In this document: positions 22,744-26,005 of the stretch, one piece after another
Layout: the number at the start of each line of letters is the position of its first letter
How positions within the stretch are numbered: the first letter of the stretch is position 1
Source of the DNA: a virus
Strand: one strand, 5' to 3'
Length of the DNA stretch: 64,000 nucleotides
Virus record (IMG/VR): IMGVR_UViG_3300023179_000056
Coordinates: 1-64,000 of that record
Notes under the pieces: generated by a model
Database searches by the model: none
Seen by the model: only the letters and a program-made list of their open reading frames with translations
Told to the model about the DNA's origin: nothing
Translations under genes and position numbers: made by a program

Positions 22744-24688
22744 TCTCTTTCACTACCTTGAGAATGTTCTCTACCCTGCTGGTCAGTTCGTCTCTGTGAC
22801 TTACCAACCAGATGCTCTTGTGTCGCTCTCTGCTCATCTTCTTCAGCAAAGCCAATGCGTTCTCCACACCTTGTGTGTCTAACCCAGAATCGATCATCTC
22901 GTCAATGAACAAGATATTGATAGGTTGATACAGACTTTCCCACACATCGCGGAATGCCCAACTCATGCTCAATATCAGTCTGTTGCGTTCACCACGTGAT
23001 AAGTTGTCAAAGTCCAGTTCACGACCCAGTTCTTCAATGCTCACGGTGAGATCGTTCTGGAACTTCACAGTGTGCGGCAATCCAATTCTATCAAGATAAT
23101 GCGTGAGTCTTGAGTTGAGATAACTCAAGTTCTGATCAATGATCTTCTTACGCACAAAGCTGTCTTTGCTGGTGAGCAGTTTCAACAAGAACTCTTGATG
23201 TTCTTGCACCCTGACAAACTCGTTTAGTGTATCGTAGCTGACCACTTGCAATGCTTGATTCTGCATGTCTGCAATTTGTTCAGCATATGGATCAGTATCT
23301 GCAGACCTTACTGCAAGATCCTTACGTAACGTGTCTACTGTATTTTTGTGATTAAGTGCTTGTTCTAAGTTGTCATAAAATACCACAGGCGCTGTGCCTA
23401 GAGTACCAATCGTTGTTAGTGTGGCTTGATGTTCCAATCGTTGTGTATCATTAGTTAACAATTGCAAAGCTAATTCTTGAAGATTTTTTTCACGCTGTGT
23501 TTTTACAGTATCAAGACTGTTGTCGTGTATTTCGGTACCACAAGCAAAGCATTTGTGTGAAGCAATTTGCCCAAGATCTTTTTGAATCTGATCCACTTGC
23601 TTTTGCAATTTTGCATCGTCAGCATTGATCTGTTTGATCCAGCGATTTGCATCATCTGAAGATTTCTTGCGCACATGATATGCTTCGAGGTCTCTATGTG
23701 ATTGAATTTCTGCCGCAATATCAATATGTTCAAGATCACTGATACCTTGAGTCAACGCAGCCACATCTTCTGCTTGTTTGCGAATCCACAGTACACGACG
23801 CTTTTCCAAACTTTGTATTTGTTCTTCGATACGTTTGTTGGCTTCTTGCACAGCCCGGATACGCAGTTCTTCAGATTGGATAGAATCCTTGGTCTGTCTG
23901 TTGAGTTCTTTGATACGGTCCGCACGTTCGCTCAGTAAGGTGATACCCAGCAGTTGTTCAATAATGGTTCGTTGTTCATTGGCTTTGAGACTCAAAAACG
24001 GTGGTGTATATGTGTTTAATGCAACAATGTGTTGAAACATGTCGTGGCTCATGCCCAACACACGCTCAATGGCTTCTTGTGTTTCACGACTATCGCCTTG
24101 CGCCTCGTCCTGTGCTGCTTGATGTTGATCATTTACATAGAACCGGAGCACGTTGGGTTTGCGACCGCGTTCGATACGATAGTTCTGACTGCCTACAGAA
24201 AAATCAAGACTGACCATCATATGTTTGGCATTGGTCTTGTTCACAAGATTGTCTTTGCGGATGTTGCTCAAGGCTTGACCATACAGGGCATAACTTAATG
24301 CATTGACAATTGTGGTGTTATGCGATAAAATTCCACTGGTAAAATATCGGTGATTGGCCGAATCCACTGAAATATCATACATGTTTTCCATGTGCGGATG
24401 CTGGACCACAGAAGTAACCAATTCTGGTCCAGAATTGGTTTGAATCACTGAAACATTTGGTATGAGATTCTTCACATAGATTTCAGTCAAGTTGTGGTCA
24501 AATACAATATGGTCGTCTGCACACCTTAATGTCAGTCCCGATTGAGTTTGAATGGACCAGACTTGGTATGGTATTGTTTTAAATATCTTAGAAACAGGAT
24601 GCCATCCAGTATCGGTTTCTATTTCTAAATTGTCAAGATCAACGATGTCGACAAATTTTCTAGTTACTGTGTCAGAAATTGAATGCAT
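22703..24688 (-). CDS. gp46: gp46 recombination endonuclease subunit, C-terminal half with C-intein
   Basis: A 661-residue precursor. Residues 1-124 are the C-terminal part of a split intein: block B-like TQSGLTLRCADDHIVF, block F-like MYDISVDSANHRYFTSG and block G ending ILSHN. The extein starts at Thr125 with TTIVNALSYALYG, the second half of a Walker A region. The rest is the SbcC/Rad50 family: coiled coils, a zinc-hook CFAC near residue 380, signature LSRGERNRLILSMSWAF, Walker B ILFIDEMIDSGLD and H-loop WLVSHRDEL. Joined to the N-half at 25736, the mature protein would be about 587 residues (T4 gp46 is 560). With gp47 it processes DNA ends for recombination-dependent replication. Confidence 0.93.
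   Translation of the reverse strand: MHSISDTVTRKFVDIVDLDNLEIETDTGWHPVSKIFKTIPYQVWSIQTQSGLTLRCADDHIVFDHNLTEIYVKNLIPNVSVIQTNSGPELVTSVVQHPHMENMYDISVDSANHRYFTSGILSHNTTIVNALSYALYGQALSNIRKDNLVNKTNAKHMMVSLDFSVGSQNYRIERGRKPNVLRFYVNDQHQAAQDEAQGDSRETQEAIERVLGMSHDMFQHIVALNTYTPPFLSLKANEQRTIIEQLLGITLLSERADRIKELNRQTKDSIQSEELRIRAVQEANKRIEEQIQSLEKRRVLWIRKQAEDVAALTQGISDLEHIDIAAEIQSHRDLEAYHVRKKSSDDANRWIKQINADDAKLQKQVDQIQKDLGQIASHKCFACGTEIHDNSLDTVKTQREKNLQELALQLLTNDTQRLEHQATLTTIGTLGTAPVVFYDNLEQALNHKNTVDTLRKDLAVRSADTDPYAEQIADMQNQALQVVSYDTLNEFVRVQEHQEFLLKLLTSKDSFVRKKIIDQNLSYLNSRLTHYLDRIGLPHTVKFQNDLTVSIEELGRELDFDNLSRGERNRLILSMSWAFRDVWESLYQPINILFIDEMIDSGLDTQGVENALALLKKMSRERHKSIWLVSHRDELTSRVENILKVVKENGFTSYSTDVEIA
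24317..24688 (-). other. C-terminal fragment of a split intein (124 residues)
   Basis: Runs from the start Met to the terminal Asn of SHN. It has the penultimate His and last Asn needed for Asn cyclisation, and Thr as the +1 extein nucleophile. With the 39-residue N-fragment the whole intein would be about 163 residues, a mini-intein size with no endonuclease domain inside. Confidence 0.9.
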
Positions 24689-25773
24689 TTTTTAATTACT
24701 TCCTCTTTATTTTTCTTAAAATCACTTTCCCAAATTACCAATACTTCATAGCCTTGATCTCGAGCATATTGTAATTTTATGCGATCTGAATCCCATTTGT
24801 TAGTGGCTCTGAGCTTGGTTCTTGGGTTTATAAATTCAGAAGAATACCTGGCTGGGTTGCAATGCCAAAAATCTCCATTATATTCGATAATTTTATTGTT
24901 GACTTGTATGTCATACACATACTGCTTTTTATTTGAGTTAACCAGGGTAAACTGATGACACACCGTTGGTATGACTTGTTTTATTTCATTGAGTAGAATT
25001 TTTTCAGCCTTGGAAACAGTGATGCCTTTAGATAATTTTAACCGATTAATCCTGGCTTTTTCTTCCTGAGATTTTGCATTTAAAGTATTTTGCCACTTCT
25101 CTTGTCTGTTGTTCCAAACTTTTAATCCTTCTAATTCGCCGTGTTTTTGTATGCATATTTCTTTTGAAAAATATTTTTGGGAATTAGACCGCATGATTGC
25201 TGCTTCTTCATCTGAATGGCCTCTGGCAGTATAGTATTCTATACAACGCTTAGAGGTTGCCCGACGAATGTCGGTAGTAGCTGCATTGTTTGCTCCTTTT
25301 TTATTATTTTTAAATTTAGCATCAACAGCGAGCTGCTTGGCAATTTCTTGTGTATATCCCTTTTTAATCCAGTATTCTGGTCGAATTGGTCTACGACTGT
25401 TTCGTTCAAAGTCTGCTTCAATTTCCGTATAGTTATTACCAGTAACTGGATTGATTTTTTTGGTCCAAAATTCCATTGAATATGGACTATCACGATTTGC
25501 TTTTTTATTCACAATTTGCATGTGTGCTGCGGCATTTACTTTGGCTTGTATGCTGTCCCATCCTCGGTCGGTCCAATATTTTGGACTTCCTTGGGATAAG
25601 TTGGTGCAAGGAAACATACTATATGCTAATTTCATGCCAGTACGCATACATTTGATATCTGGTGCATTTATTAGTGCATTGAACATAAATTCTCGTTTTT
25701 TACCATCAAGATTTTTAATCCGTTGGTCTAAAATTTTATTCACTATCTCTAGTTTGCTCAGATTTGATGCCAT
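24664..25773 (-). CDS. Free-standing Vsr-like (EDxHD-type) homing endonuclease inside fractured gp46
   Basis: A 369-residue basic protein lying between the two gp46/intein halves and overlapping both (38 and 25 bases). Residues 60-250 carry repeated short DNA-binding modules (PKYWTDRGWDSIQAKVNAAA; PEYWIKKGYTQEIAKQLAVD; IEYYTARGHSDEEAAIMRSN). The C-terminal 110 residues form a Vsr-like PD-(D/E)XK nuclease: KQYVYDIQVNNKIIEYNGDF then WHCNP, a conserved DSDRIKLQYARDQGYEVLVI and WESDF. Fractured phage genes with split inteins and intervening nucleases of this type were described from marine metagenomes; this matches that layout. It would spread the intein-plus-nuclease insertion into intact gp46 genes. 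Confidence 0.88.
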   Translation of the reverse strand: MASNLSKLEIVNKILDQRIKNLDGKKREFMFNALINAPDIKCMRTGMKLAYSMFPCTNLSQGSPKYWTDRGWDSIQAKVNAAAHMQIVNKKANRDSPYSMEFWTKKINPVTGNNYTEIEADFERNSRRPIRPEYWIKKGYTQEIAKQLAVDAKFKNNKKGANNAATTDIRRATSKRCIEYYTARGHSDEEAAIMRSNSQKYFSKEICIQKHGELEGLKVWNNRQEKWQNTLNAKSQEEKARINRLKLSKGITVSKAEKILLNEIKQVIPTVCHQFTLVNSNKKQYVYDIQVNNKIIEYNGDFWHCNPARYSSEFINPRTKLRATNKWDSDRIKLQYARDQGYEVLVIWESDFKKNKEEVIKKCIQFLTQ

Positions 25774-26005
25774 GATATAGTTCTCCCATAGTTAGTTCGG
25801 ATATTTCCCCTGTTAGGGTATTACGAACTTTTATAATAGTATTTATATCAACACACTTGCCTGTGCCATTGCGGGAGCCGTCCCCTCCCATATCCAAGTT
25901 TTCGCCTAGCACCAGCGTGAGATCGCTGCGATCAAAGTCAATGGCCTGCGTGGTGTTGCCCACGCTCATGAAGTTTTTTACTGTGAGATCACGTAGATGT
26001 ATCAT
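25736..26005 (-). CDS. gp46: gp46 recombination endonuclease subunit, N-terminal fragment with N-intein
   Basis: An 89-residue precursor. Residues 1-50 are the gp46 N-terminus: IHLRDLTVKNFMSVGN, then LTLVLGENLDMGGDGSRNG and TGK, the first half of Walker A. Residue 51 is Cys, the expected intein nucleophile, followed by VDINTIIKVRNTLTGEIS, the block A strand of an intein. The frame stops 39 residues into the intein. Splicing would join Lys50 to Thr125 of the downstream half and restore GTGKTT. The ATG overlaps the gp47 stop as ATGA, so gp47 and this fragment are translationally coupled, as gp47 and gp46 are in T4. Confidence 0.93.
   Translation of the reverse strand: MIHLRDLTVKNFMSVGNTTQAIDFDRSDLTLVLGENLDMGGDGSRNGTGKCVDINTIIKVRNTLTGEISELTMGELYHGIKSEQTRDSE
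25739..25855 (-). other. N-terminal fragment of a split intein (39 residues)
   Basis: Starts at the Cys codon TGT (25855-25853) directly after the Walker A Lys. At 39 residues it is much shorter than the roughly 90-100 residues of canonical split-intein N-fragments. It contains only block A and the next strand; block B is in the other half. Confidence 0.88.

Follow-up and report, generated by a model that had tools for sequence, protein, structure and literature searches.

A putative S2-split intein, with an EDxHD-type endonuclease gene between its halves, in the Walker A motif of a viral gp46 gene

In a fractured gene, the two halves of a split-intein gene are separated by a free-standing homing endonuclease, and the split inteins gp41-1 and NrdJ-1 from such genes were reportedly described by Dassa et al. 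in 2009. Here we analyse a split intein in the gp46 (SbcC-like) gene of the virus record IMGVR_UViG_3300023179_000056 of IMG/VR (91,885 bases), whose positions 1 to 64,000 form the window, i.e. the whole stretch of DNA under study (64,000 nucleotides, nt). Few characterised natural split inteins with a short N-terminal fragment (IntN) are named in the reviews and papers surveyed: AceL-TerL, GOS-TerL, VidaL and PolB16 OarG. The IntN comprises 25 amino acids (aa) in AceL-TerL and 37 aa in GOS-TerL (PMC11766414, PMC13014065); both are split at position S2, after helix α1, and VidaL and PolB16 are split at S1 (PMC13014065). In GOS-TerL the tail of IntN is reported to be dispensable (PMC11766414). 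The EDxHD family of homing endonucleases, I-Bth0305I included, has also been described (PMC3943268). Two kinds of element are already known: natural inteins with a short IntN (short-N inteins) and fractured genes that carry a homing endonuclease. The present locus very probably represents an S2-split class-1 intein in the gp46 P-loop, active by trans-splicing, with an EDxHD homing nuclease between its halves.

The intein comprises 163 residues, encoded in two open reading frames (ORFs) on the minus strand, as are all parts of the locus (Table 1). An earlier note on this DNA had proposed a 39-residue N-intein and a 124-residue C-intein (IntC) at 24317-25855; these coordinates are exact, and the gp46 location, the total of about 163 residues and the placement of block B (CADDHIVF) in the C-fragment were borne out. 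In respect to the content of IntN, described there as block A plus one strand, block A stands, but the model of a contiguous relative (see below) gives two β-strands (residues 7-12 and 18-22), helix α1 (23-31) and a non-conserved tail. Family profiles were built because the split halves fall under the threshold of the Pfam intein model PF14890, which gave no match in a search of the virus's own genome. An IntN profile made without the window recognises its IntN with an independent E-value (i-E) of 4e-16. For the IntC profile the window gives E 5.4e-57, at the sole such site in the record. The NCBIfam model intein_Cterm (TIGR01443) gives 16.3 bits against a cut-off of 15.6 when the halves are scored apart.

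A separate IntN ORF, stopping 32-57 residues past its first residue (median 37), is found in 68 distinct loci, the window included (one of them, L022, has a frameshift in IntN), and the junction is GK/C wherever IntN was placed against its extein. Since this short-stop IntN recurs in dozens of independent loci, a frameshift or sequencing error hiding a longer N-fragment beyond 25739, a point raised in the earlier note, is ruled out. Unsplit forms do occur in the family (a truncated contiguous intein in L075, contiguous terminase inteins in L080 and L202), as would be expected if a frameshift or assembly error made a contiguous intein appear split at 25739; such an error is nevertheless extremely unlikely, because the arrangement recurs in dozens of independent assemblies, in most of which a complete nuclease ORF overlaps the two halves. 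For the family, it is rejected on the basis of those assemblies.

The position of the insertion is defined by the match to PHROG_77 (SbcC-like), in which the N-part reaches model position 333 and the C-part takes over at 334. The intein thus lies inside the Walker A motif, G-T-G-K/T-T. Excision of 25855..24317 gives an unbroken P-loop, and the joined pieces of gp46 form a predicted product of 587 aa with the complete GTGKTT motif. Intein-free gp46 alleles exist (L122-L127); they align gap-free through the junction GGCAAG/AC and show 94-97% protein identity to the predicted spliced product over its first 196 residues.

Block B His60, Asp105 and Ser122-His123-Asn124 are invariant across 59 IntC sequences, and Cys1 is present in 25 of 25 aligned IntN. 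With Cys1 at the intein start and Thr at position +1, the window has the residue set of a predicted class-1 intein of the Cys1/Thr+1 type. In the proposed mechanism the two halves, produced as separate proteins, would assemble into one HINT (Hedgehog/intein) fold, in which Cys1 would form the N-terminal thioester and the N-extein would be transferred onto Thr+1. Cyclisation of Asn124, assisted by His123, would then release the ligated exteins as an uninterrupted gp46. Within this explanation, trans-splicing and cleavage by the nuclease are the parts that we infer. The two gp46 parts might also function unspliced, as an enzyme of two chains, like the mobE-split NrdA of phage Aeh1, and the relevant passages of PMC2988022 describe phages in which a homing endonuclease splits a gene and the pieces come together in this way. 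Such an enzyme is very unlikely here, as the break falls between the P-loop Lys and Thr, where 163 intein residues are attached, the residues at the splice junctions show conservation, and purifying selection acts on IntC.

The fold was predicted for L202, a contiguous terminase intein of the Vibrio phage VAP7 type, with alignment rows from the window and its relatives. The model (mean predicted local distance difference test, pLDDT, 87.2) shows the two strands and the helix mentioned above, a disordered loop at 38-61 (pLDDT below 50), and then the strands equivalent to IntC. The split point of the window maps into this loop, just after helix α1, at S2, the position of AceL-TerL and GOS-TerL. 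The top fold match is the HINT fold of VidaL (Foldseek E 7.7e-10, target TM score 0.86; VIA-align Z 22.3, 1.6 Å over 137 residues); other inteins follow, and Foldseek also lists Cat, the consensus of AceL and GOS. A profile comparison with short-N split inteins had been proposed earlier as a check; against the PDB, the IntC profile gives gp41-1 at 4.4e-12, VidaL at 1.8e-11 and CatC at 1.9e-7. CatC is matched, but gp41-1 and VidaL are better, and by sequence and fold these two are the closest solved inteins, with Cat more distant.

In the window and most relatives an endonuclease gene lies between the intein halves of the split host gene, the arrangement of a fractured gene. Of 52 loci measured, 41 have a sense overlap of exactly 22 nt between endonuclease and IntC, and the codon of the invariant endonuclease residue Cys363 (TGC) is made of the TG of the IntC ATG and the next base. 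The endonuclease was modelled with AlphaFold (pLDDT 88.7, 33 rows), and the C-terminal domain of this model resembles Vsr (1cw0, VIA-align Z 11.9) and I-Bth0305I (3r3p, Z 11.0). The conserved IIEYxGDFWH motif fits EDxHD enzymes, and E297, G300 and H304 are conserved in at least 90% of sequences; by model and motif, the catalytic domain is assigned to the EDxHD (I-Bth0305I/Vsr-like) type. The same N-terminal part is found in L032, L043 and L115 with the EDxHD-type C-terminus swapped for a seemingly GIY-YIG-like sequence, supported by Pfam T5orf172 in one alignment member.

Table 1. Features of the gp46 locus and its surroundings in the window
Feature	Position	Strand	Evidence
gp47/SbcD-like nuclease gene, partner of gp46, upstream	26002..27018	-	PHROG_100, E 3.9e-61
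gp46/SbcC-like N-extein, residues 1-50, ending at the first Walker A half (...SRNGTGK)	25856..26005	-	ORF; PHROG_77
N-part ORF, 89 codons: 50 N-extein residues + CVDINTIIKVRNTLTGEISELTMGELYHGIKSEQTRDSE, then stop	25736..26005	-	
IntN, 39 residues: Cys1 (25855), block A, through helix α1; stop at 25738..25736	25739..25855	-	
Shine-Dalgarno-like GGGAG upstream of the endonuclease ATG, within IntN coding sequence	25783..25787	-	sequence
Overlap of IntN ORF end and endonuclease ORF start, 38 nt	25736..25773	-	
Homing endonuclease ORF, free-standing, 369 aa; lies between the intein halves and overlaps each	24664..25773	-	
EDxHD/Vsr-like catalytic domain (predicted), endonuclease residues 252-369, motif IIEYNGDFWH	24667..25020	-	VIA-align, Foldseek
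Shine-Dalgarno-like GAGGAA upstream of the IntC ATG, within endonuclease coding sequence	24700..24705	-	sequence
Overlap of endonuclease ORF end (stop included) and IntC start, 25 nt	24664..24688	-	
C-part ORF, 661 codons: 124-residue IntC ending SHN, then TTIVNALSYALYGQ + remaining gp46	22703..24688	-	
IntC, 124 residues: block B CADDHIVF, block F, terminal SHN	24317..24688	-	profiles; TIGR01443
gp46/SbcC-like C-extein from Thr+1 (TTIVNALSYALYGQ...)	22703..24316	-	PHROG_77, E 1.2e-81
299-aa ORF overlapping the gp46 end, Cys-rich motif CQAACPLC of radical-SAM type	21844..22743	-	
501-aa ORF with internal repeats (SPYVDATGVDAAVNAATAAAQL)	28041..29546	+	

Promoter-like and terminator-like sites around the locus in the window occur at about the frequency expected from shuffled sequence.

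Between the window and L001, a close relative, the DNA of the intein halves is 95-97% identical by alignment, while that of the C-extein is 82.5% identical. Over ungapped codons, the synonymous distance (dS) is 0.08 for IntN and 0.12 for IntC, but 1.5 for the first 100 codons of the C-extein (nonsynonymous distance, dN, 0.076); for the N-extein dS is saturated, although an indel shift may contribute to the low identity in this ungapped comparison. In the five remaining close pairs whose IntC dS is measurable, the direction is the same. As the synonymous distance of the intein is far below that of the flanking gene, the intein moves horizontally. The endonuclease would probably cut intein-free gp46 alleles, and repair after the cut would copy the whole block of IntN, endonuclease and IntC into them. 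In L001, only 131 of about 1050 spacer bases remain as a nuclease remnant, with both gene ends and a broken frame, and the intein is still split; the split state thus outlives nuclease loss. Relics of nuclease ends were also seen by eye in L034, L056, L085, L105 and L118.

Several observations weigh against the interpretation as an active, EDxHD-associated split intein. The fold support comes from a model of the contiguous relative L202 rather than of the window's own two chains, and the IntN profile alone misses CatN and the N-part of VidaL, with no convincing match in the PDB. Pfam PF14890 gives 10.6 bits against a cut-off of 35.8 with the halves scored apart, and recognition of the intein thus rests on the family profiles. 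For the endonuclease, 3r3p is the top Foldseek match at probability 1.00, but its E of 0.14 is weak, and the assignment leans on the VIA-align Z-scores and the motif. Splicing of the window halves is itself deduced, and the nuclease is dispensable in relatives such as L001, as could also be the case if the intein were a decayed, non-splicing relic and gp46 were inactive or replaced. A relic is nonetheless very unlikely: the catalytic residues are intact, the family is widespread and uniform, dN/dS of IntC is 0.06-0.22 in six of six close pairs, and the C-extein codons compared above are under purifying selection.

In viral contigs, 79 loci have a close IntC relative, and a profile scan yielded 429 loci, of which the best 80 were kept. 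The earlier suggestion that the short-N type is rare does not hold for phages, given these 429 loci encoding IntC relatives. The scan of bacterial and archaeal genomes gave three relatives, all on metagenome-assembled contigs, and for this reason the family looks viral. The relatives occupy P-loops of gp46, terminase, DnaB-like and ClpX-like genes; these host labels come from short extein patterns and are approximate for any single row, DnaB-like and ClpX-like being pattern labels. A tree of 86 intein rows joins the window with L001 (100/99), and this pair falls within a clade (100/99) that comprises 27 rows of TT-type gp46 inteins. The S-type inteins of gp46 belong to a different clade, close to some of the terminase inteins; those terminase inteins that sit at non-P-loop sites (Cys+1) are separate. 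The tree is rough, with unsettled bootstrap and several long branches, and its deeper order and the direction of change between contiguous and split forms are without support.

Among 318 phage records, most of them not viewed singly, none exceeds 60% identity to the window IntC; the best match (44%) is in terminase genes. Most of the aligned TT-type gp46 inteins are more than 50% identical to that IntC, which suggests that the cultured phages of that collection carry no close gp46 copy.

Terminase genes of the family show further variation. In L038, L039, L045-L047, L055, L056, L058, L061 and L106-L108 the terminase holds, away from the P-loop, an additional IntC relative with Cys+1; in L055 and L056 this second intein is contiguous. 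The terminase of Agrobacterium phage Atu_ph07 (L206:1465-2330) is annotated as two genes, the first ending GRQLGK/SVHKSTDITYNDKQ...KLVR, with Ser1 and no Cys after GK, and the second holding an IntC relative that ends SHN/TT. The sequence suggests that this cultured phage carries a Ser1/Thr+1 intein with an atypical split; among natural atypically split inteins, PolB16 has been called the only one known to lack cysteine (PMC13014065). In Delftia phage PhiW-14 (L081:3476-4360) the terminase is split at ARQMGK/CVQGDTE...GRG stop, the N-part is unannotated, and a strong hairpin (-24.8 kcal/mol, z -4.2), absent from the terminator-scan list, lies between the halves. The C-part of the terminase of Salicola phage SCTP-2 (L204:1238-3394) opens with an IntC relative and has two genes just upstream on the other strand; its N-part was not found within about 2.5 kb.

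In the literature searched, which left the original fractured-gene, AceL and GOS papers outside, no gp46 example of a short-N intein or fractured gene and no mention of this clade were found, and the relevant passages of the one paper joining intein, gp46, phage and split contain no gp46 intein. Within that literature, the locus stands as a new member of the short-N inteins, from a large clade without description there. We lean towards the view that this is a large undescribed phage clade of S2-split inteins specialised in Walker A P-loops (gp46, terminase, DnaB-like and ClpX-like), with the nuclease gene frame-interlocked with both halves, and its nuclease domain open to exchange (EDxHD or GIY-YIG) or to loss, with the split retained. 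The locus leads to dozens of distinct short-IntN inteins with a conserved core of about 31 aa, a size suited to peptide synthesis. The variation in +1 residues and host proteins makes them directly usable for tests of speed, orthogonality and dependence on the extein, of use in protein engineering, and the coexistence of contiguous, split-with-nuclease and split-without-nuclease relatives provides material on how a contiguous intein becomes split.

Compared with known systems, the window intein resembles AceL-TerL-like short-N inteins, as the earlier note had suggested: AceL-TerL and GOS-TerL (Cat, PDB 6dsl) share the natural S2 split, block B in IntC and a phage-type host gene, and the 39-aa IntN is close to that of GOS-TerL. 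It differs from them in its host, the gp46 Walker A motif with Thr+1, and the non-P-loop terminase relatives form a separate clade. The EDxHD endonuclease gene overlapping both halves is a feature of the window, the neighbourhoods and full sequences of AceL and GOS lying outside the comparison. VidaL (PDB 6vgv), also a natural short-N split intein and the nearest solved fold, is split at S1, after strand β2, with an IntN of 16 aa (PMC13014065). The phage-type split inteins gp41-1 and NrdJ-1 have the canonical split, with a long IntN and a short IntC, although gp41-1 is matched by the IntC profile. Like I-Bth0305I, the window endonuclease joins a Vsr-like catalytic domain to a longer part for DNA binding (PMC3943268), but it is free-standing between intein halves. 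The terminase intein of Kuttervirus (Salmonella phage Maynard) and other Ackermannviridae, annotated in the Maynard record (Cys110-Asn268), is homologous to that of the window; it is a single chain of 159 aa, too short for an endonuclease, in a terminase host, with about 34-44% identity to the window IntC.

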